Below are positions 346 through 54,189 of a stretch of 64,000 nucleotides of DNA, in pieces (positions within the stretch are counted from its first letter, which is position 1; each line of letters starts with the position of its first letter). The notes below the pieces were generated by a model that was given only the letters and a program-made list of their open reading frames with translations, did not search any database and was not told where the DNA came from. The position numbers were made by a program, and so were the translations under genes. Source of the DNA: Pomacea canaliculata (taxonomy: Eukaryota > Mollusca > Gastropoda > Architaenioglossa > Ampullariidae); assembly GCF_003073045.1 (NCBI RefSeq), contig NC_037591.1, positions 44,953,403 through 45,017,402 on the forward strand, given 5' to 3'.

Positions 346-2765
346 TTTACCATAGTACATTAGTATGTTAAAAAGAATAACATGATCAATACTTTGACTC
401 AGCAACGAATTTCATTCCCACCACCCAGCCAGTTTTCACTGTCTTACTCCTTAGATGTCTTATTTGGTAATGCCAAAACTCAATTCACCAAATATAGCCG
501 TGACTCACGCAAACACTTTGGGGACAAACAGTTAGGGGTTACCTAGAAAATGTGGAAATTTGTGCCATCGGTGTGTCACATCCTAGTTCTACTAAGTAGG
601 TCAGGAAGTAGACAGAAAGACAGGGAAGAACTGCATAAAGCTCATTCTGGCCTAGAGTGTCCCAGTGGCATTGCCATAGAGACTGCTCATAGACCATGAG
701 GCCAGACTTACATTCACATGACACTAGTAAGTAGCCTTGGTGGTCTGATCTGCTTCAATATTGCCTTGGATGCTAGTATGTCCAAAGAAAGTCAACATCT
801 TTGCTGCAACGAAGAGCCATGTCAATGGTATGGAGCCACACCCAAGTAAGTGCTCAAAACACCAGGACAGAAGAGCTTGGAGAGCAGATAGAAATATTTA
901 AGAAAATCTGCTGCGAAGACCAGTGAACGTGCTGCAAAGCTAGCAAGATGACATGAAGCTCCTCAGAGAATATAAAGTAACCATCTGCAAGATGGGCTAA
1001 ATAAAGATGGCTGTTGCAAATGGCAGGACTGAACTGCTGCTGCAGCAACAGAATCCAGGATAGCCAGAATTTCCTAGAGGTCTAAAGAGTGAAACATGTC
1101 TGCCCGACACATCACACATGCCATGATGCTTTAGTTTAAGAGTTTATAATAGCTTGAATAAATTTCAGAGAGAATTGTTGTTTCACCAGAACTTTAAGGA
1201 AAAAGAGCTATACAAATAAACACATTATTTTTCAAATGAAATAGCAAACTTATCATATTATTCATTTTCATATGTGAAACTGGCTCGAGGGGACTGCTCT
1301 CTTATCTTTGTGGTCTTATTCTTGCTTCTATGTCTCCTCCTGATCTGAGCTTTTTTGCTGTGATGAATTTACCATTCATCTTCGTCTGCACCAGACCATT
1401 TCCACCTAGAAGTCACTTCCCCTCATTGATTGCCTGCTTCCTTTATCTTGCCATAATGGATTTTTTTCATGCAGTTCACCTGTGAGGTCGCAGAGTCAAT
1501 GCAGCGTGCTTTATCCTTTCTTCTTTGTGATCCTGTAGATCCTAGCAACTTACAATGATTTGATCTCTGGACAAGAACTATTTCCGAGCATAACTTGATC
1601 TGCTTTTGCCACAGATTAATAATGACTTTGTAGATCTGAACTACTAATTGTAGAACTGTGATGCCTAACCATCTTCATCTGACTAGAAGCTACACTCTTG
1701 CATTTGACACTGATGACTAATGTTGAAATTGATTTTGGTGCTTTTGCATAAATACTGTAGAAATCTATCTTCCACTATACATTTTCTGCAGAAGATTATA
1801 GCAGTGTTTTGACCATTCATAGAGCACCAGACTAAAACAATCTATGAAAACGCTTGGACTTGTGACTCATGATGAATGATGACCAGTTGAGCATCAATGG
1901 ATTTGCACTGCTTCCTTTCTGTCGGCTTGTAAACTCATTGTCATTATGGTTTTTCAAAGAGACATTTTGAAGCAATAAAAAAAAGTTTACCTATTAGATC
2001 CATTCTCTGACTGAAATTGTGGTGTGAAAAAAAGCATCTGCAGCCTGGATTATTGCTTTTCAAATATACTGTGCATGCTGGGAGCAACTTCTGAAGACAT
2101 AACTTTCATTTCTATAAACACCAATTTTTTGCATGTTGCTTACATCCATGTCTATAAGTGTGCGTGTGTGTTTTGTAATTTGCCATGAGCCTGACTATAG
2201 GACAAGGATATGGTGCTATATAAATTCACTTTATTATTATTATGCATCAAGCACTTTTGATTGAGGCTGATTGATACACTCTGATCATGACAATATGTGC
2301 AGAAATAAGTTGTGCATTTATTGAGTTTGTAATACATGCATAGTATGATTTGTTTCTGGAACTTTATGTTCTTTAATTTGCATTATCTTGTGCAAATAGT
2401 TTATATGCTTTTAAATATATTTTATATCTATATGTTTTCAAGAGTAACGAAAGACTGAAAGATTTTTCCCTAAATGCTTTAAATCTTGACACACTTAAGA
2501 AATAACATTATTTCCAAATCTGAAGCCAGTTAAACACTACCAAGACAGAAACATGTTTTGTTTAGTACATACTCGAACTGCAATAGTTAACAATCAAATA
2601 GGTTATTTTATATAATAAAAAGTTTTAAATTGGCTGCTTGTAATTTTTTTTTTTTTTGCAGTTTGGTAAGGATTTTTAAACTCAAGCACATCATGTGCTA
2701 CAAGATGCTATATGCAAGCTTATTGCTAGACAAGTTGATACTTAAAAACTAATAAGCATGCTTAC
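346..2765. other. Non-coding stretch, TFCP2-like intron
   Basis: AT-rich sequence between the left-edge repeat and the last visible TFCP2-like exon. On the minus strand I looked for the next expected piece of the CP2 DNA-binding domain (a VVFHDRR-like or EGWRW-like segment) and did not find it, so the following exon probably lies left of the window. Apart from the LINE-like tail near 2180-2245 nothing else is recognised. Confidence 0.5.
2180..2245 (+). mobile_element. L2/CR1-like LINE or SINE 3' tail
   Basis: The sequence gtgctatataaattcact followed by ttattattattat resembles the 3' terminus of L2/CR1-type LINEs and the SINEs that borrow it (a ctatataaa box followed by an ATT microsatellite). 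Only the tail is recognisable. Confidence 0.45.
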
Positions 2766-5700
2766 CCGTAAACATTTTCCTTGTAATTCAGACAAATCAC
2801 CAAGCTTTTTCACCTTGATTTCATATGACTGACCTGTATAAAAACGTCAAGACTTATCATGAGAAAATAGCTGACACCTTTATGCACATTTGAAGTTTGA
2901 GCCATCTTATGCACATAAGTTCAAGATGAATGATGGCAACACAGAAATAATTCAGTCACAAACTTCACATCAAGTATGTATATGCCTCTAGCACATTCAC
3001 CTTCTCCTAAGGACTAATCTAAGTGGCATAAAAATATTGTTTTTTTTTTTGAGGGGATGGGCAGGTGTGGATGTCTGCCTGCATAGATCATGGTAGGATG
3101 ACAATTGTGGCATGATGTAGAGACAACTACACCTTCACAGACAGGAACAGATCCTCATAAAATATCTTAGACACTGGCTAGTTACCACTTATGGCTATGG
3201 TCAATGCTGTGCTCTGACCTCTTATCAAACTTGGAAAAGTGCCACTCATAAGCCTGACATTCAAAACATCTTTGCACAAATAAGGAATATTCACATGATG
3301 ACTAAATGCATCTGACTGTATGTTAAATCTCAGCCTCTAATTTATTTCCCAGACTGTGGACATAGGCTAAAAGTTCAGTCTCTAACTTTGGTCAAACCAT
3401 TCATTCCCCTCATAAACTAAAAGTTCAGTCTGTAACTGAGCTGCTTGCCCCAGTTTAGGCTCATCATGACTACAAAAAAGCCATGTTGTACTACTATTGA
3501 CTTCACAGTCTGACCCCTACCAGCTATGTCTGCTCCCTAGACCTTATGCAGTTGACTCATATCAGACATGTTTGGGAGCCTCCTCCTTTTCCTTGATCTG
3601 GCCCCATGAGTCAGGATAGCACTTTCAAATACTTGTCAAGGTTGGCCTTAAGACCAGCTTCCAGTTCACGACATTGCCAAACCCGTTTGACAAGAAAAGT
3701 GCTGAACAATGCTGTTACCAGTTTGGCTGACTACCCAATAGCATTTGTATTTATTTGTAAATTATGATTTGTAATCTGTAAGATACATGAAATGCTTGCC
3801 ATCTGTGGAAAGGCATGATTCACAGGATGTAAATATTCATGTTTTTGTCACATCTTACCCCTCACACAGCATGGTGCATGGAGGGCACTAGCTTGTGTTT
3901 GTCACTGAAGATCTGAAAACTTCTATTTCCAGTATACAACCAAATTCAACACAGTGATGGGGATGAAGATTATTCAGTTTAAGTAACAACATTGTTCTAC
4001 TTTTTTTTCAAACATAGAGGTTGCTGCCACAAATTCTTCAGCAACAACTGAAAGAGATAGTTCCAACATTGACACTCTTTTACTGTTTGTAATCTTAAGC
4101 ACTGCCATGTCAGTATTCTCCAGTTTCTTTATCTTTCATCACTGCTCTGATTTGAAATTTTAAGGCATGATCTGCAAATCCAGGATGCCACAGCTTTGAT
4201 GATTACACTTTAAAGTAGTGTTTACTGTGTCTTAATTCCACCTATGATGTCAGTTGACAACATGTTGACTGTCAAGAACCAGCCAAGAACTGTGTTTTGA
4301 CACGATTGTAAGTAAATGGTTTTTTTGAAACTAAAATATTGAACAGAAACAATTCAGCACATCAGAATTTATTCTTTTCACTCAATTAACTAGTTGACTG
4401 GTGTGTGCCTTAAAAAGAAAATGTACCCATGTAAAGAACACCACTGCACTCAGTAATTACCTTGATTTAAATAAGTAAGTGTTTCTTCGTTCATTTTCAC
4501 TGCAGGTGAAGTAGCTGCCCCAAGAATATACTGAAACCTGTAATGTAATGAACAATCTATATAACTACTACTCCTGAAGAGGCAGCAAAAAAACATTCAT
4601 GAACAACTAGGACATCGGAAAAATTCTTTAACCATAATTCCATAAATTTCAAGATATAATAAAAATCTGTTACAGCAAGTAAAATATATATTATGTTATT
4701 GTATAAATGGACAAAATTCACAAAAGCCCACTGTGACCAATAGCAAAATCAGCCAAGAAATTTGAAGTGATAGTGTTGTTTTCCAAGATCATAATATTTA
4801 ATTATTTTGCCCAAAAGAGGCAATGTGAACAAAGAAAACTGACATCAAAAAGATGATGTTAATGTGGAGGTTATCAAATATGCATTAACTTTATTAATAA
4901 TTTATTAACTAAAATGTATTGTTAGGACAAGTTTAAAATGGTGGGTTACTAATATTTTGACTTATAAAAGAAGCACTTTGATTTTTTAAAAAATAAAACA
5001 AGTGCTAAGAAATAAAAACTTTTCTTGAAAATTTTTAGAAAGCATTTTACATATTGCTATAATAGTCAAATGTGACAAGACCATGATTGAATGATGGCAA
5101 AGGTCAAACACCAAAGTGGCAAATGACTTCCAAAACATTTCACTATTTTGTTTCTTCAACCCACCTTGCACTGAAAACCCAAAGTACTGGACTGCTCAGC
5201 AAATCACTCAGCTATTTTACAGCACAGCTTTCAAGTTTTACATATATCGTAAATGTGTGTGTGTGTGAATGCGAGAGAGAGATAAATGAAGCAGAGTACT
5301 GGGATTTTATCCCAAACCTTACCCATTTTCTAAATTTTCTTGCTTGAAAACAGGGAGAGCCAGTAGTGCTTCACTGCACATATTGGAAAAGAAAAATCAA
5401 GACAATATTTAATAATGACCTTACTCCAACAAGTTATAACTCAAGACAATATCTATATTGACCTTACTCCAACAAGTTACTGCTCATGAGCATCAGTATG
5501 AAAAATCAACACACAATATTTACAGAATGCTGTCCTTGCATGACATTGGTAGAGCAGAAAAAAAGGGGGTTGCTCATTATGAATTACAAGCAAATACAAA
5601 ATGCTGCTTTTGCATATTTTCAACCTTCTTGGAATGACATTTTCCATGAAACCCAACAAGTAGCTGAAAACTTTGCAATGTTAGAGAGGGGTTGGGGGTA

Positions 5701-8700
5701 AGAGGGGCAAATACATATGAAAAATCGATAGTTTTCTATCATTTGAGCCATTACTTTTGTCTGTGCTTGAGAAACATTTCTACAAAATAACTGGGTTGAC
5801 CCTGCTGCTTAATCCAGTTAAGTTCTGTGCTATAACTAGCATGACTGTAAGACATGGTGGCTATCTCAAATGTATAACCTCCACCAAAACCACTTTCTAC
5901 ACGGATCTCTGGATCCACCACTCATGAGTAGAAGTTTGCTTTCTACATAGATCCCTGGATCCACCACTCGTCTATGGCACTCTTATGGGTGCAGGGCTGC
6001 CCAGACACCTCAAACCAAGCTGACCAGTTAAAAGTTACTGGGCTCCTACTGGCTGCATGCTGGGATCGTGTGCAGCATCTAGAAGTTTCTCCCGCCTCAT
6101 ACTATAGACCTCAGTCTAGTGTGCTTGTTTCCCTCGTTTTCGAAGCATTTTTGATAAGTTGGATTCGCGTTTTTTGCTTTTTGTACATTTACAAAACATT
6201 AGCACATTTATTTTATAAAAACCATGGGTCCGAAGAAGATGATGTCTATTGAATCAAAGCGTGAAATCATAGAAAAACATGGGCAAGGTGTGCGAGTAAT
6301 TGACTTGGCGAGGATGTACGGGCGTAGCACATCAATGATATGTACTGTGCTTAAACAGAAGGAGTTGATAAAGGGTATAACGCCAGCTAAGGGCGTTACA
6401 ATGATTTCTAAGCTCCGGACCTCTCTCCATGAAAAGATGGAGAAACTAGTGACGAAAATTAAGCGCTCCCATAAGCACTTCACTTTTCTTTTATTATGTT
6501 TTGATAGAATATGCATTTGTTATTTATAAATAAATGTTTCTTCTTGTAAATACATTTTTCTTATTCAAAAACACTTAACAAAAACAACTGAAGGTGATGT
6601 TTTGGGAGCTGGAACGGATTAATAGCATTTCAATTAATTTCAATGGGGAAAATTGCTTTGAGATACGAGCAAGGTTACGGAACGAATTAAACTCGTATGT
6701 GTACCACTGTACTGATAAATTTATAAAAGTGAAGTTTACTTCTGTCATTATTCTACCTCATGTTGTAGCTTGATGTGCCTAGTTCTGTGCCAAGTCCTGA
6801 CAGTGACCCATCAAAGTCTGCTGCCAATCCTCCGTCTATATCCCAAGATGTCATGGTATGTGTTGAGGGGTGACAAATCTTGGTTCGCTTTCCTGCTCCA
6901 CCCCCAGTTTCTTCACTCCAGGTATATCCACTCTCATGATTGTTGCTAGAAAACAAAGCAATTTACCAGACATAGTTCATTGGGTGTAAAATTGGCATTT
7001 TTCCCCCTTCGGCTACCTCTAGTTTTTTCCTCATTTTTAAGTGCTCATGGGCACATAAAGCAACAACATCCTCTAACAAAAATTACTGAGACACATCACC
7101 CTAACCCCACATCCTGAATCATCATACTGTGATTTTACCAGTATAACTTTATTAATTATACAATTGTAGTCTACTATAAGTTAAACACATCAGTGTCACT
7201 AAAACCCTTATAAATCATAAATCTGTTGTCATGACATCCAAAATTCAAACTGCCACTGTTTGAAACCATAAATACAAGATTTGAAAAATTCCATTTTGAA
7301 AATAATCTATTTAACATTGTATCATTAGATGAATTAGGTACTAATGGAGTAAAGGAATTTTGTTTGCTTAACTAAGCATGATGTTAGGAAAAAAGATCAT
7401 TCCCATCGTATCACAACTGCAGAAAGCTTCCCACTGCTTGTATGTTGAATTGACCATGTGAGTTTCTCAATATGAGGGGAAAGAACTGGCATTTGTAGGT
7501 GTCAAGGTATAACAACCTCCATGCCTAACCAGCCTGGAAGTGGGAGGGTAGGTTGGTCTTTAACCTTGATTTCTTTTCTGTCTGCCTCATCTTCTACACC
7601 TTTTTCTTCAAGTGGAAAGAAGTTCCCTATCATGCAGATGAAAATTAGATGAGAGTGCAGGGATAAAAACAATGATGCAATTTTTGTACATGTTTTGCTT
7701 GGTTCAGATTAATATTTAGTTTGCTGTCAACTGACAAGGAGAAGGGGAAAATAGGACTCCAGAGCTAGGTAGCGATGCTTTAATGGCAGTAGAACCAAGA
7801 TCAGGGTGATCCATGCAACATACCTTATTTATTATTCTTTACAGTTAGTGTCTTGCAGAATGTCCCTCAGTTAACCACTATGCAGCATGAATGGGGATGA
7901 GAAAGCTCACTCCCCTGCGACTTGGGGGAAGGAGGGGGGGCTAGTTGCTATATGCAGGGCTATCTGGACTTTTTAGATAATGAAAAACAGTTCAGAAAAG
8001 GTCATGCACACTTCTTGTCCAAAGTAGACCATCAAAGTGTAGCCATGCTTTCCACAAAATACAAAGACTTCCTGACAATAACACTTTGCTGTGTCATTTT
8101 TGCAACAAGATTTAAGGGTTTTTTTTTTTTTTTTTCATATTTGCAACACACGTACGCATCTAATACAAAAATATAATTTAAAAAACACACATTCAAGAAA
8201 TGGTACTAGCAAATAGGTGATTTCAAATTATTAAATAATTGGAAATTTGGAGATAAACATTGTTTTATGCTATTAATAGGCACTCATTTTTACTGAAAAA
8301 AATGTGACCTGGGTATGCAATGTCAAGGTTATTATTTAACAGTTTATTTCAGTATTATATTCCATTTACTGATATGACATTATAAACAAAAAATAGCTTT
8401 AATGGTCAGAAGTAAGTACATATCACAATAAGACAGCTACAATCAAGTTTTGCCTTTGGTGCAAATAGTTTATGTTCAGCATTTTATAATAAAAAAATAC
8501 TATATTTGATAGTTTGAAAAGTTTTCATGATGATTAAGTGCTCGTTTTCATCTGTCAAATGTATACTTATGCGTAGGGGTGGTCTTCGTTTCTAATCACT
8601 TTGTGGATTTGCCATGTATATACAAGTACTTAAAGTGTAAATGGATCATATGTGTGTGTTGCACAGATGAATTTCTCTTAGGGTGCTAGAGTGTAGATAG

Positions 8701-36609: not shown

Positions 36610-39600
36610 ATGAGAATGTTTTTAAAAATTGGTGGCAGAAGTGGAAACATTTTTGGTTGAGACCTTAAAGAGCGTAAAGCTGTCCAAGACCATACAAGAC
36701 CAGAGAGATCGTCTCGTGGAAAAGATCACACGCTTGCTGGAGGAGATACCAGGCTCTGGAGCAATAGCCAGTTGATGTCGATAATGGAAGCCTAAAGATC
36801 TCAGATGGTAAAGCATATTTGTACAGTTTTTTTTGCTAAAATGGCAAACAGTTTGGATTGTCCATGTATTTTTTTAAAATATAACTTTATTGTGCAATCT
36901 TGCATTGAAAATAAAATTAGTATTATAGTAGATCTTGCCTTACAAGCTAGCCATAATTCATGCAGTGACTAGTTGACCAAAATGTTGTTGCCATTAGCCG
37001 TGAGCATGCACAGAACTCCATTGTTCATTCCTATAGTTGGCTACTAGCAGCCCTATTTACTTTCTTTACTGAGTCTATCTTTAAGTCAGCATGTGCCTCC
37101 TCATGTGCTTGAGGCTTGTTTAGCCTGTGGAACTGGCCTGTGTTTGTTAAGCCATTTACATTACTTGTTGTGACCCTGGCTTATTACTGGTTGGTGATAT
37201 GCAGCTTACTGACAACTGTCAGGTGAAGTAAAATTTGATGCTGACTTTGATTATTGTAGCGTTATCATTTTATCTATCCAAAAATGATCAACATGGAAAT
37301 GTGGAATGTGAAGGTGATCTGTTTTGTTGATCTGCTTTTAAAAATCCTTCAGGTGGGAGATGGAGGCAGCAACAGCAGCACAAATATTGTTCACGAGGAG
37401 GAAGACTAGGTACAGTGATGTCTGTATATTATATATATGCAGTAGATTGTAATGTATGGATAGACTATTACAATAAAGAGGGAGAAAATATTTTGTAAAC
37501 TTTTTTTTATGTCAGCCTTATAGGTGAAATAGAAAGTAACGTAGGGAAAATGAGATTTTTAAAATGTAGTTTTTGGTTTGTCTTAGTATATAGTTATTTC
37601 TAGTACTAGCCTTCAGCTGTTATTTTCACAGGTACATTTGGGTTAGGATTAACTCTAACCCTCATCCTAACCCATGTACAGTTGCTTGTTTGCACTCTTG
37701 GGTATCTTGAATAGTCATGTTTATTACAATCCTTACCAACAGTATCAGCAGCAACACTCCATGCCACAAACACACACAGCAGCTGTGCAAACAACAGTGG
37801 TAACATAACAAAGCTATACTCTCCTTGTTCATTGCTGTCTGTCCCTGTGAACATCGGTTGAGTACAAACATAACAGGGATAAAGTAAAAAAGCTATACTC
37901 TCCTTGTACATTGCCATTTGTCCATGTAACAGATGTCCCCAAAGTGGCAGTAAGCAGTCTAAAGAACAAGCTGCAGTCTGGCATTCTAGAGAAAAAAACA
38001 AAAAAAGGTAAAGTATAAATAGAATGTGTTTTACTACATTCTGTGCTGTATTTGGTCGACATAAACCCTGATGTGAGCATAAGTATCATTTTTTGAAAAC
38101 ATGCTTAGACATTCACCTTTAGATCATTTCTAATTTCTCTGACTGCTTTTGTCCCTTAGTTTAGTTTAGTTAGTTTATTCTTTGTTGCTCCCTTGAAGAG
38201 CATAGGGCTGCAACAACACCTCGCCAGACTTATTATTCACTTCTCTGCTTTCTGCTTATGTCACTCATTCATTACTGTTCAGAGTCTTTTTCCCATAGCC
38301 CCCCTCATTCAGTAAATTCATTTTAGGGCATGAGATTTCCTACCTTTGACTTGTCTGTAAAGTAAAAACATCGTATGACTGATCACTTTATGTGACAGCG
38401 AGTTATTTCCTGTTTTAGCTTGTCTGTAAAATAAACATATCACATGGCTGACTACTTTGGTGTACAGAGCAGTGTTTCCCTATTTTTCGATGCCCCATAC
38501 CCCAAAGAAATGTTTAACCCTTAACATACCAAGGGGGTCCTCAGAAGATCCCAGAGGGTGACTCTTAGTGATCCTGCAATGACTATAGTGACTAATTTAC
38601 TCTTGATTTTTGTCTCTGTCCCGTATCAACTTAAGATTATTCAACTATTATCATTATTTTTTTAAACAAACGTAAAATACAGTGATACCTCGGTTCTCGA
38701 ACGCCTTGACTTTCGACCAAATCGAGTATTCGACCAGGAAATTCGAGAAAATTTTGTCTTGGAATCGAACAAATATTTGGAACTCGAACATCCGAACGTC
38801 CGAGATGAGCCGAGTTGAGCCGAATGGCGTTCATTCGACCCAGCGCGCCTTGCTTGCGGTCATCAGTGTGAGTGCAGAGAGAGAGAGAGAGTCACGTTTT
38901 TGGAGAGTCATGAAATGTGTGCAAAATGGGCAGAAATCGCAAATTTTGTTGAACAACATCACCCTGATAAGTGGTAGCAAATTAGAGCAGTTAACATTTT
39001 TAATGACAATGTTATGTCCACTTTCCGCAAAATTTTGCAAAGGAGAAAAAAACAGCAAACAATTGACAAATTCTCCGTAAAGAAATCAGACAAGCAACTG
39101 CAGAGCAAGATTCTGATTCTCCTCAGCAAAAGATACAGAGAACAAAAACACCCAAAGAGCAGTTACCCTCTGTTTTTATTGAAGAGGACTCCCCTTCAAA
39201 ACAAAACCACCCCCCTTCCCTCCTCCTTCCACATTCATTCCCTCCTGCCATAAAGTTTGGTACAGTTACAGTAAATGAAACACAATTACTGTACTGTACA
39301 GTACATTTTTATTTGTTTGTTAATAAATACACTTTTATTTCTTATTTCTTGTTGAGACATGCTTTTTCTACATATATATACAAATTAGGCCAGTAAATAG
39401 GCATTTTTCTTGGGCTTGGAACATTAATCCAGTTCCATATTTCCTATGGGTTTCATTGCTTCGGGTTCTCGAAAATTTGGGTTCTCGACCGTCGTCCTCC
39501 CGGAAACGAATTATGTTCTAAGAACCGAGGTATCACTGTAAAATGCTAGCATTTTGGTCTGTGAGACATGGAAGATCAGCACAAACTGTAACATGTGCTA

Positions 39601-42600
39601 AGGACTTGTAAAGGACTGGCAACACATGAATCGATACCATTTATTCAGTGAAATGATATAACTGGTTGTAGAGGAATATTATACTGTATGTAATCAGATG
39701 TAAAGATGTACAGACTGTATTGTTTAAATTTACATGTAAAAGTGTAGACACTTATGAAGAAAAAAATATGAATTTTATGGCTAACTACTGTTGAAATAAT
39801 CCAAATATACGATGCCTAAAAATGCTTGTATTACTGAAATATTGTTTCAGAAACCCCCCAAATCTAACTTAAGTAATCTTTTGCACGAAATATTTGAGAA
39901 ATTAAAAAAAGGGGGTTCCTCCAAGGCCCCCAGCTTGGTAAACAACGTTGACGACATAGGCTTGGTATGTTTAAGTGGTTACTGTTTGCAATCCCTGCAG
40001 AAGTAATATCACATTTTGAAAATGAAATTAATGATTTTAAAAGTAATATTCTGACAATGAGTTACTTGTATGTTAATTTGCTATTTCTCTGGTTTTGATT
40101 AAATACACGAGACTTCTGTTTGTGCTACACAGTCATTCTGGCTACCATTTCTGCAACACTGGTAGATGGCTGAGTTATGGATTGTCGCTTGTCACTCAAG
40201 GACTAAAATTACTCTTTATTGCATTCCATGAAAATTCTTCTCACACCACATGAATTTCATCTCGCACCCCCTGGCCCATGGATTAGAATAAAAGCATAAA
40301 CAATCTCCCCCAGTTACCTTTCTTGTATAGGAGAATTTGAGCAGGTTTGGAAAAAAGCAATAGACGTCTAAGGTAAAAGTGGGTTATGGAAAAAGAAATT
40401 AAAAAGATTCTTCTATTAAGGACTAACAAGTATATAATTGTACGTTCTATAAAACTTGCATGGATATTTTCTTTTTCTATTTATGATGTAAATTTGTGTT
40501 AAGATAGATTACCAAAATAACAGTTGTGGTAAAGACAAAACCCAGTTTCTGGTTAGGGTTGGTGTCAAATTAAAGCAAAGCAAAGATGGGTCTTTTAGCA
40601 CCTTATTTACAGGCCTGATCATCTTTTAGATGGAGATTAAGGTGTGAATGGCCTGTCATTGTATGCTGAAAGGTATGACACTTTCACAGTTGTTGCAGCT
40701 TTAAGATCTTGGGAATCACGATACTGTGTTGTCAATGGAAACATTTTCTACATCTACAAGAAACAGACAGACACCAAGCAAAAAGAGGCCTTTTATCTGA
40801 CAGGTCAGCACATGTACAGTTATTCTCAACTTTTGTTTAAAAAAATAGATTCCATCTTAACTGGTAATCTTGTTGAAGCTTTTGTTATTTCACAAGATTA
40901 TTTTACAGATGCACTAACCCTGATTTTCCAGTATTATAATGATATTGGAGCCCTCTGTGATCTAGTTGTGTGGACTGGAACTACTGGGCCCTGCACAGTA
41001 ATGCTGCCCAGAGTTTTATGGTAAGCTTGACTGTGTTTATAAACTTTTCTGGTCCACAGGTTATGAATTCCGTGAAGCTCCAAATCTGGAAAAAGACAAT
41101 GCAAAGAAAGAAATGTGTTTTGAACTTGTCAAACCAGGCAGCCCAACTTACCAGGTTTGTAACTCCATTCTGGCTACTGTGTTTTGATTTTTCAATATAA
41201 GTTGACAAGTCTGTGATGAATTTTGCTCCTGGCAATGAAGTAGTTTTGTTTTGAACTTGTTAATGGAGGAGTGATGTATTCAACTTGTGGAATGAGGCAG
41301 TGAAAATGGCTTGGTCTTAATTGCATGAATGCATGTCTCCCTTCTGTTTATAATGGTGATAAAAAATTTTAGAAGGTGGATGGGTCCTTCCTGATCTAGT
41401 TGTATGAGTAGGAGAAACTGAACTCTTCATGAGTAGCTGTATAGACAGGATACAATGGGCCATACACGATGCAGCTGTTTGGATAAGAGATAGTAGGCCA
41501 TACACAATACAGCTGTGTGGATAAGAAGATAGTAGGCAATACATGATACAGCTGTGTGGACAGTAGATAAAGGATCTATATCATGAACTGGATGGACTGG
41601 ACCTACAAGATCTTTGTGGACAGAAGATAAAGATAGCTGAATCTCTTTAATCACAGTGAGGTCTGTGATTTGGTAGTTTATTGGGAAGGCAACTGTTTCT
41701 CAGTTTTAAACTCATCACATCTGTGTTTAGACCAACACTGTTCATGGGTCTGTACTTTATTTGTTTGAGATAATTGTCTTGTTCTGTACATCTGATGTGT
41801 TTAATGTTCTGTATGAACAATTTATTGTTGTGTACAGTTTAGAGCTGGCAGCAAAAGATGGAATGAAAGAGTGGCAAGATTCAATCACAAAAGGAATCCA
41901 GTTGACTTCAAAGGTTGGTGACAACGGAGGTGAGTTCAGTGGTTAAGAATTAAGTTCTTAATTTTTTTTCCTAAGATTTGAGTTAATTCAAAGGACTTTC
42001 TCCCAGACCCACTGTGAGACTAAATCTTGTCTTGTTCTTGTTGAACTAAACTACCTAAGTGCATGAGATGTAGTTGTCTGTAAATAGCTGCAGGCCTAAT
42101 GGGGAGGGGTGGGTGGACAGGGAGGGCTGATGTACCTGGGCCTGCAGCTGTGGAGGGGCCTTAATCAGTAGCTTTTTTTTTTTCTTTTAAACAAATGTCT
42201 GGGAAAAAATACTGAAAAAAAGTACCTAGGATGTGTGACTGAAATTTAATTTACAATTGAAATTTAAAACATTATGCAATTATGTTTAGAGTACTGGATT
42301 TACCCAAAGAAGTTGTGCAGTTTGCTTTTCACTGTTAAAAGTGTTAAGACTTTGTTTGTAATGAATTTTATTGGTCTGTGTAATTGAAATATATATCATT
42401 TGAAAACCTTAAGGCTCTTCAATACTTGATTTTTGTTTTGTGATGCCACAAAAATGTCCTTATTGCAGTACAGTTACACTTCAGTCACAGTTTCATGTTA
42501 TCACATAGCAGTTTTCTTCACAAAGCTGTATCTTGTTGTAGTTGTATGTTAGCACAGAGCTAAAATCTTGTCCTGATTGTATGTCTGCACAGAGCTGCAT

Positions 42601-43890
42601 CTTCAACTTATTGTATGTCTGCTTATAGCTATATCTTCACCTGGTTATGTCTGCACATAGTTGTATCTTGTCCTGATTGTATGTCTGCACAGAGCTTTAT
42701 GAGGATGTGGGTCAAGAAGAACAAGAAAGTGGGACTGGCAGCTTCCCTCCACCACCTGATGATATATTCACAGACCCTGATGATATTTATGAAGAAACAC
42801 AGGATGTAGAAGAAATAAAAGAGGTTAAACCTCAGCTTAGAAATCCACCACCACCTCTTCCACCACCAAAAGTAAGAGACGAGCCAGAAGAAGTGTACGA
42901 TGATTGCAGCTCTGAACTGGCACCTGTCAGTGGACCAAAAGAAAAAGGCATGTGAAATGTGCAGTTTCTGTTACTTAGCTATGGTCAGGTGTTATGCATA
43001 GTTTGTGCATGTACACACACACAACAGTTTACATGGTAATGAAAGTGTTATGATAACATTTAAATGTATATTACATATTGTAATATTAATATTGAAATAG
43101 ACATGATCCAGTCGTTAATGCATTTGACTGAGAAGCAGTAGTGGTTTGAGATCTAAAGCAAGCTCAGGCATGTGCCTGGAAGACTTCTCCAGCAGCGTTG
43201 CCTAAATGGGTATCTGCTTTGTCAGGGAAGGTGGCTTCTCCTACATGCAAAACACTGCACATGATTAACCAGTCTCCCAAATGGCCACTAAACTGTCTGA
43301 CTTCTTATGCCAAATACTACTGTGACACTTTAAATATTTAGCAATAATGATTATAACTTTTCAGTTCTTGCAATTTTGATTGATTGCGTATTTTACTGAT
43401 GTGACTGAATTCTTTGACTAAAATGTGTGGCAGACCTACTATATTTCTTTTTCGTCATATTATTTCCAGAAATCTTACAACCACCACAAACTCAGGGATT
43501 AAGAGCTAAAGATCAAGCTGCTCCCCCACTGCCACAAGATGTGCCTCCAGTCCCTACCAGAGTGCCACCAAAAGCAGAGTTACCTGCTCTTCCCACACTC
43601 CCGCCTCCTCCTCTTCCAGACAGACGCCCCAACACTGCCGAACAACGCCCCAGCATTGCCGAACAAACTCTTCCCTTGCCTAGCAGTCCTCCCCCTCTTC
43701 CTGTCAGAAATGCTTCAGCACCTGTAGCCAGAGTTCCCAAACTACGCAAACCATTTGTATTCGGGAGGAGGATTTTGAGCACATTTACTTTGGCAAGTGG
43801 GATTGTTCTGCAGATGCAAGTACAGAGTGTCCTTTTAAACAAGGGACTTAATCCACATACTAAGTCAAGATTATGATACTGAGAACTGGG
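36610..43890 (+). CDS. SKAP: SKAP1/2-like adaptor protein (PH and partial SH3)
   Basis: Src-kinase-associated phosphoprotein, a cytosolic adaptor in immune-receptor and integrin signalling. Exons: about 36610 (or 36639)-36807, 37353-37409 (uncertain), 37933-38007, 40699-40803, 41060-41154, 41838-41929, 42693-42947, 43470-43890. The first gives VAEVETFLVETLKSVKLSK, the SKAP N-terminal dimerisation helix. The PH domain runs through LQSGILEKKTKK, ESRYCVVNGNIFYIYKK, KKEMCFELVKPGSP and DGMKEWQDSI. Next come NGELYEDVG and IYEE (tyrosine motifs), Pro-rich APPLPQDVPPVP, and an SH3 start FEHIYFGKWDCSAD ... LIHILSQDYDTENW. The final SH3 exon was not found. The reading frame is broken by single-base shifts at about 36625, 36770, 41853, 43755 and 43843. 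Intron 42948-43469 is GC-AG (aaag/gcatgt). Confidence 0.85.
36808..37352. other. SKAP-like intron
   Basis: No element recognised. Confidence 0.35.
38678..39540 (+). mobile_element. Tigger-like element, deletion derivative, complete termini
   Basis: Starts cagtgatacctcggttctcg and ends gaaccgaggtatcactg, giving near-perfect inverted ends, with TA duplications at 38678-38679 and 39539-39540. The internal coding remnant reads STFRKILQRRKKQQTIDKF and KKSDKQ, the C-terminal tail of a Tigger transposase. Most of the transposase is deleted. It sits in an intron of the SKAP-like gene. Confidence 0.93.
39541..40698. other. SKAP-like intron, non-coding
   Basis: No recognised feature. A short ORF at 39812-40006 has no homology that I recognise. 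Confidence 0.35.
41930..42692. other. SKAP-like intron with local degenerate tandem copies
   Basis: Near 42540-42700 the phrase gtatgtctgcacagagctt and variants (tatcttgtcctgattgtatg) recur about four times. The last copy contains the acceptor used by the exon at 42693. Confidence 0.6.
43095..43330 (+). mobile_element. tRNA-derived SINE-like repeat
   Basis: gatccagtcgttaatgcatt tgactgagaagcagtagtgg tttgagatc resembles a degenerate tRNA with an A box (...ccagtcgttaatgc) and a B box (ggtttgagatc). It is followed by an unrelated body of about 150 bp. Located in the GC-AG intron of the SKAP-like gene. Confidence 0.55.
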
Positions 43891-44974
43891 GTAGGTGAAC
43901 TAGAGGGAAGATTGGTCTGGTGCCCAAGAGTATCTGAGTCCTGCTTATGAACTGGTATGTTGAAACACTTGGTATGTAAAGAGTTAACAGAACATTCTGC
44001 TGCTGCAGTGCAGATTTGAGCTGAGTCATTCACTGTACTGTTGTGACAAAATACCATTCTGATCCTGAGCCTTAGGTACATATTGTATATTTGCATTAAC
44101 TTCTTACAGCATTCATTAAATTGTACACCTTGCAACAGATTTCTAATAACAAAACACATTCATATTCTTGTAAGGAGCTGGTAGCTACTAAATCTGGAGC
44201 ATACTTTTTCTCCAAGCACCATTAATTTTGCTGCATACTGTGACTGCATTTTTACACAGTAGCATACTTTGTATATTTACACTGCTACACAGTAGCAGAA
44301 GCTATCCTTTTTCTACAATTCTGGTAAGATGATTTGAACATTGTACTGAGCTCTTAACAGTCATTGGAGAGTTGCATGCATTAGTTTTAATTATGCCAGT
44401 CTTAAAGAATGCTGTTCTTAAATAATTTTTTTTTCAGTTGTATAAATATTTCAGCTTTGTTATACATCCACTGATCTGTATTGGACATCACTTACCAAGC
44501 ACTTGAAGCATTCTCCAGCAGGGTTTTGATTGTACACATAGCATAGGGCTGCAAGAATTGGTTATACTCCCCTATAAGCTTTTGAAATAATTTCTTTAAT
44601 TGATGTTCATCCCATCACCCTGCAACTGAAGGCTAAGAAAGATGAGAGTGTTTCCTACTAAGCTACTTCAGTAGATGCCGCAAAAAATTGGAAGCAATAT
44701 GCGACATCATCACTAAATGTTAGATAGCAAAAGACCAAAGATGGCAAAAACATGAAGCTAGTGGACACTGAACTTCTATATAACTAACAACTATAACTGT
44801 GTTGCTCAATGTTTGCAAACACCATTGTTTTTATTACTGTGTACTTCTCTGAAGCCTGGTCAGCAGTTGGGTACACAACACAACCATGTTGACTTTTCTA
44901 AAAGTGAATAAAATAATTAATTTTATAGTAATGTTAAAGTTATATGTAGTAACACATTGAAAGATGGTTATATT
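43891..44974. other. Downstream of SKAP-like exon, non-coding
   Basis: Expected to hold the last intron and perhaps the final SH3 exon of SKAP, but I could not identify that exon. No repeat family recognised. Confidence 0.35.
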
Positions 44975-45600
44975 TTTCATTCAGCAGGTAAATTACATGA
45001 AAGGCTTAGATAAAACAAAGTTACTAAGCTTGATATTTCTGCTCGCGCTTTTTCCGTTCATTGTTTTTGTTACAGTTTGTTTACTAAAATCCCCATACTT
45101 TATATTGACATGTGATACAGGCCTAAAATTTGAATGAAGTTTTCTTCATACATATGTAAACATTTCAGTGAGAGCTTTTTAAAAAATATTTAGTGGTTAG
45201 TAGTTACTAAGCTTTCACTTTGTTTTCCTTCGCCTTTTCAGTTTCTTGTTTTAGTAAGCTTGTTTAGTTCAAAAGCTTATAACTTTATATTGGCATGTGA
45301 TACAGGCCTAAAATTGGGTTGAAGTTTTTCTTTATTCATATTTAAACATTTCTATGAGAGCTTTTAAAAAAATATTGAGTAGTTTAGAAGTTACTAAGCT
45401 TTCAGTTTTTCTTTCCGCGATTTCTCAGTTCCTTGTTTTGGTTAGAGACTGTTTACTTCAAAAGCTAACTCCTTCTTTTGACAAGAGATATAGATCTGCA
45501 ATTTGGTTGAGCTTCTTCATACAAATTTAAACATTTCTATGATAGATTTTTAAAAATTACTTAGTAGTTGGTAGTTATACCGTTTTACATCAAAATTTCT
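44975..45600. repeat. Degenerate tandem repeat, about 190-bp unit, 3 copies
   Basis: Three head-to-tail copies carry the same order of landmarks: agttactaagctt, then a Cys/Phe-codon-like ctttttccgttc segment, gtttactaaaa or gtttagttcaaaagc, tttatattgacatgtgatac, aggcctaaaattt, acatttctatgagagcttt, and aaaaatatttagtagtt. The copies diverge by roughly a quarter. A related dispersed tail may continue to about 45920 (with ccatggcaaccgatagcgcg). Confidence 0.8.
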
Positions 45601-48087
45601 TAAAATTTAACACACTTTTTTACAAAAAAAAAATTATAAAAAAAACCTAAGAGGAATTCGCAAATTCTTTATCATAGAAATGTAGATCTGTCTTTTAGGT
45701 AACTATTTCAAAAGAATTTTGAGTCTACTCACAAAATTGGAAGAAGTTTTTTAGCTTTTAAAATTGTTTGTTTTGGCGCCATTTTGGATTGTTTCCATGG
45801 CAACCGATAGCGCGACGAGTGCAGTAAAACCATTTTTTGAAACTTCATTCAAGGGCTAAATAGCTGATACAAAAAAATCCGCGCTATCCCGTGAAACAAA
45901 AAAAAATTTTTTTGACCGGTGTCTAACCTTAAAATTCCTTCTGCCTCGCTAAGCATTTACTGTGCAGTGGCAAGGGAAGATGCTTAGCAAACTCCATGCT
46001 GATAGTGAACAGATATTCACATTCTTGCCTCCTCACTACATTTTTGAGTGGGCGATTGTTTCCCTTGTTCCCAAGCCACTGCTATGCTATTGTTTTTCAT
46101 CTTTAGGCTGTCACTTCACTGTATGATGTCACTGTGATTGTTTTTCATGTCATTTGTCAGTCACTACACTGTGTGAATGTTTCTCATCTTCAGGCTGTCA
46201 CATCCATCATAGTCATAATTACCCTTTAACCAGTGGTCACGTGTTACCATTGACAGGATTTCTGCACCTGTCACAAGCTCACAGCCAGGTAGCATGTTGT
46301 CTACTTCTGCATATTCAGCCAGTATCAGAGGCAGCTCAAAATGAATATAGAGCTATGCAAATAGATTCTCAGACTCTTGATACAGTGCCTCTAAGGATAG
46401 AAGCAGCTGTGTGACATTGGCCATCTCACCTGATGCTTCTGGTGTGCTGCCTTTGTGACATCAGCAGTTTATAACCCTGTGTGACATCGAGTTTTTCACC
46501 ATGTCACCAATCATTCCAGCTCAGACTGGTCCAGCAAACTGTATCAATTATCTCCACCTATAGTATTTTTTTGGCATTGATTGTATCCACATGGAATGTC
46601 ACCAGATGATAACAATAATGGGATGTAACTGTTAATCATATCAGCATACCCTGTGATGTTGTTGGAGGCAGAAATCTACATTTTGTTTGGTATTATGGCT
46701 TGAGGTATTGTCCATTAGCAACAGAGATTAGGGTTAGGCTTCTTTATGAAGATCATCTTGTGTAGGCAAGGTGGGACACAATATCTAGGAGTACAGAACT
46801 CGCCAGTAGTCTTTTTATTTTAAACAACTGTCAAATAGAAAGTCAGCAGTGGTGAGGGTTTCTTTCCTGAAGTATCTACAAAGAGCCACTGCAACTATCC
46901 CATGAAGACTAGCAGACAACTTTCACTTCTTAATGTTGGTAAAGCAATGCAATTAAAATTTTTGGGGTAATGGTGATAACATAACAATCTTTGTGAGCTC
47001 CTCTTTTCTGGCACGAAAAGGATTATGGTGTTTGTGCCATCTACGAAGCACATTTGTTGCCGCCAGTTTTATATGTCATTCAAAACCTGTATCTGCAAAA
47101 CTTCAACTAATATAACTGATGGCCTTATTTAAAATTTTATTTTTAGAAAAATAAAACATTTTTACTAACAAGAATGGTTTTGTTTTTCTAGTAAATTTGT
47201 ATGAAAGAGTGTAGAGTCATAATGAATGAAACGACAAAAGTAGTAGTAATCTTATAAAACTACCAAGTCAGTGCAATAAGTGATCAGTACACAATGATTA
47301 AGGACACTGAATGCCAAAACCACTTGCGAAAAAAGTTTTCTGTGGGTCTGGTCTTGTTGCCGCTAAATTGAAACATTAAAATTATTTTGCTGTATGTTTC
47401 TTATGCATGTAAAGAAAGTAAAGAGCCTCACTTTTTTTAGAGCCAGCTTTGTGTTTGAGGGGGTTGCCCATCTCCTCCCTGTCTCTCTTTACCCTTGCTC
47501 AGCCCTCTATGGAGGTATGCATTCCCAACAGCTGGGTTTAGTGGTGGAGGTTCACTGCACCACAGGGGTATCACACACACACCATTGCTCTAGAATATCC
47601 ATTCTCCATCATTTAAATGTGCATCTGCCATTTGACAGCATTTATCACAATGCAAAGTTACAAGCCTGCACCGTCTCTGTGGCCTGCTTGCAACTAGATT
47701 TGTCGCAATTTATTCAGATTCCCTTTCTTACATGGTGGTGCAAAAGATTATAACACACAATAGTTTGCAAGCTTTAAAAAATTATGTCCAGATATCACCT
47801 TTTCAATTTTAATTAACTTGCAAAAACCAATTAACACCTTCCAACTCTATTACCTGGCATGAAATAGCAAACACTCCCATATACATCTCTTACAAGCACA
47901 AATGAACTAATTTTTTTCTCCATTCACATCAAATCCTGGATCCTAAACAAAAACAATGTAAGATAAGTAGCGGAACTTCTTCTCATTGGAAGAGAAGAGC
48001 TGGTCTCAAATCCACGTTATTCAGCAATGACTATACGATGAAGGTGGGTCAGTCCTCTTGCATGTTACTTAAAAATGGTGAAGAAGG
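45601..48087. other. Intergenic between convergent SKAP-like and MTX2 genes
   Basis: AT-rich with no convincing exon. ORFs at 46154-46414 and 47394-47753 have no recognised homology or splice context. The 3' UTRs of both genes probably lie here. Confidence 0.4.
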
Positions 48088-51000
48088 TTAGTCCTTGAAG
48101 TACTCCTCTTCAATATGCTTACAGAAGTTGGTGAGATTCGAGAACTGCTGAATGATGTCTGCAAACTGCCCGACTGGTAGTTCAGTAGTGATAAGAGTGT
48201 AAAGATGACCAAAGACTAATGCATCCAGTTCTGTGGGCCTGGAAATTTCATCACAACACTTAAAGTACCACACAAGCAGTGGTCTAACTCACAATAAAGT
48301 CTGAAGCCTGTCGCCCCCTGTAATCAGGTGGGCAGGTAATCAGGTAATCAGATAGTTTACCCTCCCCAGCCCCATGAGCCTGATATTCTGTAGTTGGATC
48401 AAAGCTAAAGCATTAAAAACTTGAGTGTGGTAATTAACTACAAAATGTCTAAAGCTTTAAAACTCTGCAGCTCACACTAACAGCGATAAAACTATTTTTC
48501 AAAGACAAATGTACAAACATAAGAAGAAAAAACACTCCCCTACTTGTTTATGGTTCAGAGGTCCACGCTTATCTACTGAGTAAAAAAAAAGTTTTCTCAA
48601 CTTTACATGTTCCCCGTCTAACACACAAATACATGTTTGAGTAGACTGTAAATATTCTCATTTTATCCTGCATGCATAAAAAAGTAAATATATGTGAGAT
48701 GTCTTCCAAACCTGAGTAAGTGTCTAGGCAATGGAAGTGACAGATGGGTTAAGACTGAAGAACACAAACAGCACAACTCACTTATCTCCAAAAAAGTACT
48801 GCTGCTGATCAAGTCGCTCTGACAGAGCCTGGCAACAGATTCTGACTTCTTCACACACCTGGTACAGATAAACACAATTTATTTCCAGGCTTTCATTCAT
48901 CCATTACAACAGAAAATAATGTATGTGGAATTTTGCATGAAAGAAGTCTAACATTTTAAAGGCATCTTTTTCCACTTTGATTTTCTATTTCAACTGGTGT
49001 TCTATTAAGTTTACAGTAAAGAGATCTTTGCATTCATGTTTCACATTCTGCTCACTTATTTTTTTTAACTGGTGTTTCTCTTCAACTCAGCTGAGGGTAG
49101 ATAAAAATCTCAGTTGTTACGATGTCCCTTTACTAAAGTGTTTTATAAATATCCATTATTATTAGTATTATTAATATTTTTGTAAAGAGCTTTGAGTCTG
49201 CCTTTGATGGTCAGGTAAAGTATTATATAAATCTCACTTACTGTTATTATTAAAGCTAGGCTGAGGGTAGATTAAAGTCCCACACTTGTAATGGCATTCC
49301 TTTTATCAGGTGACTGCAAAGTTTGACGTTTGGTTTTGTAGGATTTTCAGTACTTATTATGACCTAGATAAATGTTTAGTTTTCTGATACATGGTACTTA
49401 TGATGAAGCTGACCTGTTTCATGTTCTTGTCCTTCCAGCCATTGCTGCTAAGACGAGCACGGACTTCTGATTGTTTGCGCAATGGCAAGATCCAGTTCAG
49501 TGGCCATGGATAGGGGCAACCATAACGTGGTCTTGTTACCTGGAATGATACCAATATGTAACAAAGTGCTGTGATCTAAGAATATTGGATGCATACAAGT
49601 GTTACCTGAAATAATACACGTATGTAACAGAGTGCTGTGATTGAGGAATATTAGATGCATACAAGTGCTAGACATTCAAAGCAGTAAAAATATCTTTAAA
49701 AAATTAAAATGCAAAAATAGCAACTTTAAAGTCTTTTTATTAAAATAATTCTCTCTTTCAAGAAAGCTCCAAGCAAAGAACAAAGATACATGAAAAGATG
49801 TAGGAAACAAATCTAAAGCAGCACGATACAAGGCAGCACAATAGACAGGACATAAGGACATGATTCAAAGTATGCATGATGGACAGGACATGATACAGAG
49901 CATGCACAATGGACTGAATATGATATAAAGCATGCATGATGGATAGCACATAAAGACTGGAGATGATCTAGCCAACTACAGAAGGCATTCACAGAAGAAA
50001 GTTGAACAGGTGATATGTTATGAACAGATACTAGGATCCAAAATGACCAAAGCTATTGCCTTTTATGCTACTAGATAATCAAAACTCTTTGCATGACTAA
50101 CATGTGAACTATTTTTCGCCAGATTTCAACCAGACAGCTCTCGTTAAAATATGCCTGAAAATGCATCAATCTTCTGAAAATTACACAGCTATCTATGTGC
50201 TTTCAGAAGGTCTCTAGTTATTTCACATTCCATACTTTATCAATATCAAAAGAGAAGCTGTCAAACCTTCTGCTTATTTTAACCTAAAATTAATATTTTC
50301 CTCATCCTTTTGGCAAGTAAAGCACAGGTGTACATTATCTTGGAAAAAAAACAACAACTTTTAAAATAAATTCAATATTCTGTCTGGCTCTTTTGATGAT
50401 TTTCTGTTTGCAATTAAAGCTATAACAACAAAAACAACGATAATAATAAATGCATGATTTATATAGTGCATGATCGTGCTCATGATGGTGCTTGAGACAA
50501 AAACAAGACATGGACAATATACCCAAAATAGAAGGATGAACAAGTACTGACAAGTAACAAAGATAAACACTGAAAATGCAAAAGAGGAATCGGGTAACAA
50601 AAAGTAATGATTGGGAGTTATGTGAATCTGCTGAGGGAGACAAATAGACAGAGTAGTCATATACAGGTAGTCTAAACATAATTTAGATTGAACAACATAA
50701 ATAAAACTAGTCAGATAGCCTCCCTTCTCGTCAAAAAAAAAAAAAAAAAAATTATAGACTGAAGAATACAAATAAGTCTGAAAGATTTCCTTCTCCTAAA
50801 AATAAATAGAGAGACCTGCACCAAATAGAAAGCTTCATCAGTTGGCCAGTCATTAACAAACTCATATGCTTACCTCTGATGATACTGTTTCATCCAACCA
50901 TGCCAAATAAAGCTGAAACAAACATGATTTATGAAAATATAGTTGATACTAATAAATCTTGACCTTTCACAATTTCTGGTTATACCAAGTTAACCTTTTG

Positions 51001-54000
51001 ATCAGCTTCACAAACAACCATGCTGTTCCACCATGATGAACACCTCCTAAAGTCATATCCCTTTTATTCCATCCCTATTGAATCTTCAGTCTAGGGGGCG
51101 CTACTCTGTAGCCTGACCCTGGCTAACCTTCGTTGATGCACTGGATGAAGTTCATGTGTATGTGTGAGAGGGCTTAGGTGTGTGTGCCTGTTAAATGTCA
51201 TGATATGGGTGTGTGTGTGTTTTTATATATATGTATTATGTTATGTTCACATGTATAAATTATTTTGTGAGCAAAAGAAAAATTTCTGTTCTGGATTATA
51301 TTTATGCCTAGTAGAGACAATAAAGATTGATTGATTGAACATACTAAGGATGTAAAAATAAATCCTGGATTCTGCATTTAGTCTACAGTGGAAATATCCA
51401 TCAAACTCTGAATAGCAATCTGATTTAAAAAAAAATCTATATAATACAAATGAGTGTTGTTTTAGCTGGGTCAAGTACGATGATCATTTTACGATGAATG
51501 TACATGGCTACAACCTTCAGGATGCTGAAGATATAAGAAATCCGTCATGTTGGATGTTTTGGCTACTATATCCAGTGTCTGTGTGACTGGCCCAAAATGT
51601 GAGAAGTTATTAGTTGTGAACAGAAAAAGTAATGTCATTGAGTTAATTAGAAATTACCTCTGCATTGACAAGGATGTTGTCAATCATAGCCATGTAAGCC
51701 CTCATCTCTGACCTCTCTATGTCTGACAGGTGTGAGGTCAGGGCAAAACCCTGCAATAGACCACAATTAACAATAGGACATGATATAACTCTGCAATAGA
51801 CAATCAACAATAGGACATGATGTTCAGCAGCTAAAAAAATGAGTATTTTGATTCAATAACAAATAAAATTTATGTTTGTCAAACTATGTTTTTGAGTAAT
51901 AGCAAAAATACCCTGGACATGAAGTGTGATTTGCTTACAGCCAAGCAGACAAATGTTTTTTTCTAAAAACAATTTATGTGCCAAACAGACCTACTGCTAA
52001 AGCATACATTGTAGACAGTGCAATTTCAGATCCATAATGATTACTGTCATTGACTATGTAGACAGTGCAATTTCACATCCCTAATGGTTACTGTCATTAA
52101 CAATATCGATCGAAAAACAGATGAATAGAACAACAAACTAATGATTAATACCTACCTTAGCATTGACAAATGCAATTATGGGGTCTAACTCAGAAACCAG
52201 AAATGCCCCAACATGAATAAAAGGAACTTTACCTATCAAAAATTAAAAAATACAAAAGTGAGGTAAAAATTAAAACTGTTGAAATAAAGTCTTATATCAG
52301 CTTGTGAATTAAAAATGTACTTCCAAGCATCAGTAGGTTAATTATAAAAAGTGCTGCCAAACATCAGCTGGTTAATTATAAGCTGGCTGATGCTTTTACC
52401 TTCTGATGACATCTCACTGTCAAGGGATGAGTGGTTGAGGTTTATTGTTAATCAAACATAAAAGAGCACAGTGAGATATCTGGACACATTTTGTTCATAA
52501 TTCCGTGCAAAAATCCTGTTTATAAAACTTTTAGCTTAATTAACTTGAAATTTCTAAAAGATTTCATCTTTTATTGCAACACAGCTGTCCATGTAAGTGG
52601 TGTACAACTCTCATATGACTTTCTCTTTAATCAATGAAATGTGGTGTTTCACTTAACCTGACGGTGACATCTCCTCAGCATTTGTCTTCAGCTCTACCTG
52701 AAAGTTCAGCCCACACATGTAGAGGAATGCTTTTACACTCAGGCAGTTGGCACTGTCAGGAAATGTGATCTGCTCAGCTGTACAAAGTCATTTAAAACTG
52801 CCAGGAATTCTCATCTGCTCAAATGGTCTGAAAGTCATTCTAATTCTAAACAGTTGCTTTAAAAAACAAAAAAAAAACAAAAAACAACGGGCATTCTCCC
52901 TTTGTGCTGCTAAGCAGTGGAACTCTCTTCCAAATTATGTTCACCTCTCGGACTCCAAGGCTACATTCATACGCTTTCTGAAAACATATTTTTTCACAAA
53001 GTACTATCCTTAAATTACTATTCTCAACTCCCTGGCAATACTGTCTGTCATGTTAACAATCATGTAATGACTCCATCTGACACTGTACATACCTTCATCC
53101 ATTGCTTTACATTCTATTCTTGTACCTCATCTTTCAGTTGTTCAGAGAGCCTATATGTACTCCACTGTCTACTGGATGATATCTTTCATTTATCATTAAT
53201 GGTCAGCGCAGAGAGTGCGCTCTATCTTGGTTGCGATGCTGTGCGTTACAAGTTCACATTATTATTATATAAATGACTCAGCTTTTTGTCCTTATGGACA
53301 GGTATAAATACCCCATTTCATGTAAAACAAAAAGATGCTACTACAGTTACTAAAGTATTTGAAGACAATCTCAGCATGGATGAAAAAAGCATAAGTATCA
53401 TTAAAAAGTGCAATCATATAAACCTCACCTTGATATTGTTGATAAAGGGTCACACCATCCGGCCATGGCTCAGCTGCTGTACAGTAAAGGGAATAGTATA
53501 TCGAGTTAAAGAAAACTGTAAATCATGAACACAAAGTGGAAACATACAAATATATATGTCCATATATAAATATAAGGCTGAAAAATATCACCGACAAACA
53601 GACTGGTAGATGTCATAGCAATAAATGTAGGCAGATGTAGATGAAGATGTAGGCAACATTCATTATTTTCCAGTAAAAACAAAAACAACCAAACAAACAG
53701 AATTTGTACCTAGGTGCCTTAAAAATCATGTGACCATTAAAAAGCCGGTAGAATCCCTCTTTCTACATATATATATATCGAAGCACTATTACTAAATCCT
53801 ATTTTATAACAGTGGACAGATTAATGATGCATGTTTATAATGTATTCTTATTATTATTTAAACTGAGCTGTCGGTGGTAAATACATAAGATCTGGTGGAC
53901 TCTACGCTGATGCAACGTAAGTGGTTATACATATGTATAAATATTAATAAGCTCAAAGTTGTGTTTATCGAAGGGATATGATACATGTTTCCAAGGCCGT

Positions 54001-54189
54001 AAAGGGTAAGGTTAAACTTTTGATTTTAACTTTTTATTTTCAAACTCATCCTCTTCCACTCCACGCATGTTAAGTTACTGCGTATAAACAAATGTGAAAC
54101 AGATAGAAACTTTTACAAGCAGTTGCTTTCTAACTGTACTTGCCCCCAAGTTCTGCTCGAAACTCGTCCACAACTAACGGCGAAGCCAT
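48088..54189 (-). CDS. MTX2: Metaxin-2
   Basis: GST-fold protein of the mitochondrial outer membrane, part of the metaxin/SAM50 complex for beta-barrel assembly. Nine minus-strand exons: 54189-54140, 53476-53429, 52777-52658, 52232-52156, 51750-51658, 50912-50874, 49539-49414, 48858-48782 and 48238-48088. Joined they give [75 protein letters not shown]-like [65 protein letters not shown] and [20 protein letters not shown], ending EEEYFKD. The product is about 259 residues (human about 263). All exons except the first join in phase. Exon 1 ([16 protein letters not shown], donor at 54139) is one base out; a run of five G at 54141-54147 is the likely place. A MITE-like repeat begins 20 bp upstream of the start codon. 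Confidence 0.95.
49165..49258 (+). mobile_element. L2-like LINE/SINE 3' tail
   Basis: gtaaagagctttgagtctgc then aaagtattatataaatctca and a tta-rich microsatellite match the conserved 3' end of L2-type elements. Located in an MTX2 intron, opposite in orientation. Confidence 0.6.
49670..50873. other. MTX2 intron, non-coding
   Basis: A degenerate tandem repeat at 49850-49960 (units with gacatgat, acaaagcatgcatgatggac) and poly-A at 50737-50750. No exon seen. Confidence 0.5.
52880..53275 (+). mobile_element. L2-like LINE 3' end with RT C-terminus
   Basis: Coding end reads [18 protein letters not shown] then [15 protein letters not shown] and a stop, the conserved C-terminal tail of L2/CR1-like reverse transcriptases. 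A 3' UTR follows, with tccatctgacactgtacata and an attattattatat tail. The same family occurs at 32075-32410 and, expanded, at 58820-60000. It lies between MTX2 exons 2 and 3. Confidence 0.85.

Follow-up and report, generated by a model that had tools for sequence, protein, structure and literature searches.

In a cichlid fish, skap2 adjoins the HoxAb cluster, scap1 (SKAP1) adjoins HoxBb together with snx11, cbx1 and nfe2l1, and mtx2 lies downstream of hoxd4b (excerpts of PMC2080641). Three units that amphioxus and scallop keep apart are merged in the vertebrate Hox group CLGB (excerpts of PMC7269912), so a place on a vertebrate Hox chromosome alone does not put a gene near the old cluster. 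SKAP and MTX2 stand out in that they are directly beside Hox clusters in fish (same excerpts of PMC2080641). In ampullariid snails, the Hox chromosome is a fusion of the three molluscan groups MLG16, MLG17 and MLG20, with a gap of about 30 Mb between two Hox clusters, a figure that may not be that of Pomacea canaliculata (excerpts of PMC13336756). The P. canaliculata chromosomes measure 27.2-45.4 Mb (excerpts of PMC6129957). Among the papers listed when open-licence full texts were searched for SKAP or metaxin alongside Hox, none on an invertebrate describes the SKAP-MTX2 pair, and the excerpts of PMC3707753, PMC4244043, PMC11310086, PMC3534614 and PMC12460157 contain nothing on SKAP or metaxin.

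Here we describe a window of 64 kb from P. canaliculata, the whole stretch of DNA that was analysed, in which a SKAP1/2-like gene and a metaxin-2 (MTX2) gene are neighbours.

Results

SKAP proteins are Src-kinase adaptors. A SKAP1/2-like adaptor gene was found on the plus strand at about 36629..43963 by frameshift-tolerant spliced alignments with the SKAP proteins of Batillaria, Babylonia and Littorina, and by matches to PDB structures and to proteins. The exon for the SKAP N-terminal helix (36641..36776) is followed by an exon that runs from the pre-PH region into the PH domain (37933..38007; left edge varying across the three alignments), both placed by tblastn and spliced alignment. Three more exons of the PH domain lie at 40699..40803 (tblastn and spliced alignment; left edge at 40,690 in one of the three alignments), 41060..41154 (edges identical in all three) and 41838..41929 (broken in frame near 41,856, its right edge placed at 41,929-41,941 according to the relative used). 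Then come a linker exon at 42693..42951 (right edge 42,925-42,951 by relative) and an exon for the proline-rich linker and the SH3 domain at 43470..43963 (left edge 43,496 in one alignment), which carries five breaks. All of these exons are on the plus strand, and no start codon was identified in the spliced alignments.

Among solved structures, the top matches to this gene were SKAP2 (E 5.9e-14) and SKAP1/SKAP55 (E 7.5e-13). They span the PH domain and, with weak similarity, the N-terminal helix of SKAP2. The protein search returned src kinase-associated phosphoprotein 2-like proteins of Babylonia and Littorina. It also returned an unnamed P. canaliculata model, C0Q70_04396 (P0121), which takes in a portion of the SKAP locus, some of it out of frame, and has an odd C-terminal tail in common with a frame of the window. 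Pfam recognised the PH domain, while SH3_1 rose above the cut-off only when the pieces were joined across the frame breaks. The translated pieces contain the parts of a SKAP1/2 adaptor, namely the N-terminal dimerisation helix, the PH domain, the proline/acidic linker and the C-terminal SH3 domain.

Metaxin-2 acts in protein import and sorting at the mitochondrial outer membrane. A complete MTX2 gene occupies 48088..54189 on the minus strand, and its nine exons (54189-54144, 53473-53429, 52777-52658, 52232-52156, 51750-51658, 50912-50874, 49539-49414, 48858-48782 and 48238-48088) reproduce the RefSeq protein P0001 exactly: the P. canaliculata metaxin-2-like isoform X2 (257 aa) is their letter-for-letter product. 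A P. canaliculata metaxin-2-like protein was also the top match of a spliced model of this gene, and together with the tail of C0Q70_04396 this marks the DNA as P. canaliculata, or as a congener close enough to agree in both genes. Pfam found Tom37, GST_N_4 and GST_C_6, as expected for a metaxin; the Metaxin/Tom37 and GST-like domains extend over the full length of the protein and the named identity is metaxin-2. All eight introns have an AG acceptor and seven of the eight have a GT donor, while intron 1 has GC instead of GT (54144-54143, minus strand). MTX2 was checked for frame breaks by the same frameshift-tolerant spliced alignment as SKAP, against two relatives. A break at 54,150 in exon 1 was an artefact of admitting GT donors only and disappeared with the GC donor.

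The SKAP gene (plus strand) and the MTX2 gene (minus strand) are thus convergent, with about 4.1 kb separating the SKAP stop (near 43,963) from the last base of MTX2 (48,088). A preliminary description of this DNA had placed a SKAP1/2-like gene and a complete MTX2 gene in convergent orientation about 4 kb apart within 36,610-54,189. The exon mapping bears this out and the mapped genes fit that interval, though the SKAP frame is broken. With full-length matches and conserved exon edges, chance resemblance can be dismissed for both genes.

Human TFCP2 lies on the HOXC chromosome, and the preliminary description had brought TFCP2 into its argument. That remark is grounded in the sequence, as exons of the CP2 domain were found near the window's left edge. 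They are the first ones found for a gene that encodes a TFCP2-like (CP2) transcription factor and lie at 2745..6830 on the minus strand (motifs at 6818, 4515 and 2834), with a Pfam CP2 match of E 1.1e-13 on the joined pieces. The remainder of this gene would lie off the window's left edge or be untraced.

Elsewhere in the window, a D-2-hydroxyacid dehydrogenase gene at 26311-32820 on the minus strand (Pfam 2-Hacid_dh and 2-Hacid_dh_C) is presumably GRHPR-like by name. Exons of a Rho-type GTPase (55800-56540) are followed on the plus strand by a BTB exon (60693-60938), and together they are perhaps one RhoBTB-like gene. The first Rho GTPase exon (55,800) has an in-frame stop at the expected place of the P-loop motif, which again points to a local error in the consensus. 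Retrotransposon pieces with reverse transcriptase and endonuclease lie at 13734-14504 and 22986-23717 on the minus strand (Pfam RVT_1 and Exo_endo_phos_2), and long runs of short direct repeats, open in several frames, were seen by eye at 58700-60000 and 63330-63740. Rfam gave no matches in the window, and a tRNA scan of the window with bacterial settings gave none.

The SKAP gene of the window has no intact open reading frame in this assembly: its frame is broken in six or more places, five of them within 170 bp. The break in the PH exon was placed at 41,856 in two of the three alignments and at 41,847 in the third. The breaks in the last exon (43,760; 43,843-43,846; 43,890; 43,900-43,903; 43,926-43,929) appeared in all three. 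Each alignment has at least one further, less consistent break at the 5' end (36.6-37.4 kb), and two alignments have one extra break each, at 42,694 and 43,474. The broken SH3 end is identical to that of Batillaria, Babylonia and Littorina at 46/63, 46/63 and 41/63 positions, and these three intact relatives among themselves are identical at 55/67, 46/67 and 48/67. Because conservation of the broken end is roughly that of the intact relatives, and a long-dead gene is expected to drift further, an error of assembly is more probable than the death of the gene, and we favour reading the SKAP breaks, from the sequence, as probable local consensus error. It is rather improbable that the copy here is dead and that a working SKAP resides elsewhere in the genome. 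Such a loss would account for the number of breaks, for a public model at the locus (C0Q70_04396) without any Pfam domain, and for the lack of a full-length P. canaliculata SKAP among 17 protein matches, but it fits poorly with an SH3 end so well kept, in which five indels without wider decay resemble consensus errors, and with the Rho GTPase exon 12 kb away that likewise has a stop at the expected P-loop. The origin of the assembly from PacBio long reads corrected with Illumina reads also argues against a dead gene (excerpts of PMC6129957).

SKAP-MTX2 linkage was compared in the three species common to both protein match lists (Pomacea, Littorina and Batillaria), with contigs of identical size in bp taken as one contig. 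The MTX2 and SKAP proteins of P. canaliculata are both on a contig of 45,157,847 bp, and those of Littorina saxatilis are both on a contig of 45,748,787 bp. In Batillaria, the longest scaffolds listed for the two proteins differ (980,912 and 717,073 bp), though MTX2 has a second contig of unstated size.

The window's chromosome, at 45.16 Mb (45,157,847 bp), is about the longest in the range reported for the species. Given that range and the gap of about 30 Mb, a chromosome of about 45 Mb is a natural candidate for the Hox chromosome, and the size match suggests, indirectly, that this may be the Hox chromosome. A chromosome number for the P. canaliculata Hox genes is given in none of the excerpts of PMC8152183, PMC13336756, PMC7566022, PMC12506671, PMC6129957, PMC7142155, PMC7850002 and PMC8848322. 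The suggestion that an anterior Hox gene (Hox1) lies nearby found no support, as a motif scan of the six-frame translation detected no homeobox helix-3 motif in the 64 kb window; by the same scan, no Hox gene was found in or beside the SKAP-MTX2 block. Motif scanning of the window detected no snx, cbx or nfe2.

We also compared the contigs of MTX2 (best 120 of 486 matches) and Hox1 (best 120 of 2091) in the six species named in both sets of listed matches, reading the sets by eye. The Hox1 query was a homeodomain sequence, and the matches listed are mostly arthropod. Among the matches listed, MTX2 and Hox1 are both on a contig of 62,201,769 bp in the annelid Owenia and both on a contig of 169,002,194 bp in the horseshoe crab Tachypleus, while in Anabrus each has a large contig of its own (456 Mb and 1.8 Gb). 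Since Tachypleus has several Hox clusters, the odds of a chance match there are higher. In Lymnaea, Lingula and Abscondita, the listed matches for the two genes are on different scaffolds, all below 1.4 Mb and too short to indicate chromosomes. Among the matches listed, Branchiostoma lanceolatum MTX2 is on a contig of 19.3 Mb, and neither amphioxus SKAP nor amphioxus Hox1 (best 120 of 2091) appeared; the best 120 of 2091 Hox1 matches likewise hold none from P. canaliculata.

Discussion

We consider it fairly probable that in the SKAP-MTX2 block a piece of the ancestral linkage group that bore Hox has survived: a likely remnant of a known group, with a possibly ancient gene pair. The idea that the block keeps the Hox-neighbour genes of vertebrates, raised in the preliminary description, is supported in part. 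It gains from the cichlid flanks, from the contigs on which MTX2 and Hox1 occur together in Owenia and Tachypleus, from the size of the window's chromosome and from the CP2 gene in the window, and it loses ground in Anabrus, which separates the two genes. On this reading, the P. canaliculata Hox genes would be on the same chromosome, and the pair would be ancestral and not re-formed. The block would be carried on the largest or nearly the largest P. canaliculata chromosome. By their families, SKAP and MTX2 are housekeeping or signalling genes and not Hox regulators. Slow exchange of genes between chromosomes would let linkage from the bilaterian ancestor persist while gene order scrambles, and passive persistence of the linkage group seems the most likely course, with a tight pair that may be ancestral or re-formed inside the group. 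After genome duplication, vertebrates would have retained SKAP copies by HOXA and HOXB, and MTX2 by HOXD.

The rivals to this account answer different questions (linkage, adjacency and the state of SKAP), and for that reason our confidences in them overlap. On linkage, it is unlikely that SKAP and MTX2 met by plain coincidence, on a chromosome other than the one that bears Hox. The motif scan of the window, which found no homeobox motif, and the separation of MTX2 from Hox1 in Anabrus would both fit a coincidence, but it would leave unexplained why SKAP and MTX2 are on a common chromosome in two caenogastropods, why an annelid and a chelicerate each have MTX2 on the contig of Hox1, and why the chromosome has a size that fits the ampullariid Hox chromosome. 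On adjacency, there is a real chance, if somewhat short of an even one, that the two genes, both members of the Hox linkage group, were brought together recently by gene-order scrambling inside it. Outside Pomacea, the evidence reaches as far as a common chromosome, and the two Batillaria proteins are listed with different longest scaffolds. The window also holds 2-hydroxyacid dehydrogenase, Rho GTPase and BTB genes, which are not known to be Hox neighbours in vertebrates. A recent meeting of the two genes is harder to reconcile with fish, in which SKAP and MTX2 directly flank Hox, as that would be unlikely under pure scrambling within a chromosome.

A more specific history, which we put forward tentatively and regard as somewhat doubtful, is that in the bilaterian ancestor SKAP and MTX2 were adjacent on the Hox1 side with TFCP2 close by, that the snail would have kept this arrangement near-intact, and that vertebrates would have split the copies after duplication, with SKAP going to HOXA and HOXB, MTX2 to HOXD and TFCP2 to the HOXC chromosome. 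We think it very unlikely that the pair was kept by regulation, with control elements for the partner or for a Hox gene in one of the genes and breaks selected against. Genes near developmental loci are known to be retained as bystanders, which counts for such an explanation. So does the position of MTX2 next to the HoxD cluster in the cichlid (excerpts of PMC2080641), but no Hox gene was seen within the window, and in molluscs rearrangement of Hox clusters is frequent, as far as excerpts of the literature describe them.

If the pair is ancestral, the genes that flanked the first bilaterian Hox cluster could be reconstructed, and the original vertebrate flanks could be separated from those added by the fusion of three linkage groups. 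SKAP-MTX2 would also be a simple anchor by which to spot the Hox chromosome when an invertebrate assembly is fragmented.

Compared with the described systems, the chromosome of the snail locus resembles the ampullariid Hox chromosome in size, as the latter is expected to be among the longest and the window's chromosome is so likewise. The excerpted text of PMC13336756 contains no number or accession for the ampullariid Hox chromosome, and we infer that the two are the same. With the vertebrate Hox flanks, the snail block has the SKAP and MTX2 families in common, as seen in the cichlid (excerpts of PMC2080641). It differs from those flanks in that the snail SKAP adjoins MTX2, and no Hox gene was seen in the flanking 36 kb and 10 kb. 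At the level of linkage groups, the likeness is to the ancestral chordate or bilaterian Hox group CLGB (three units, amphioxus BFL10, 16 and 18), which is Hox-bearing and conserved between amphioxus and scallop (excerpts of PMC7269912), and with which the linkage of MTX2 and Hox1 in an annelid and a chelicerate is in keeping.
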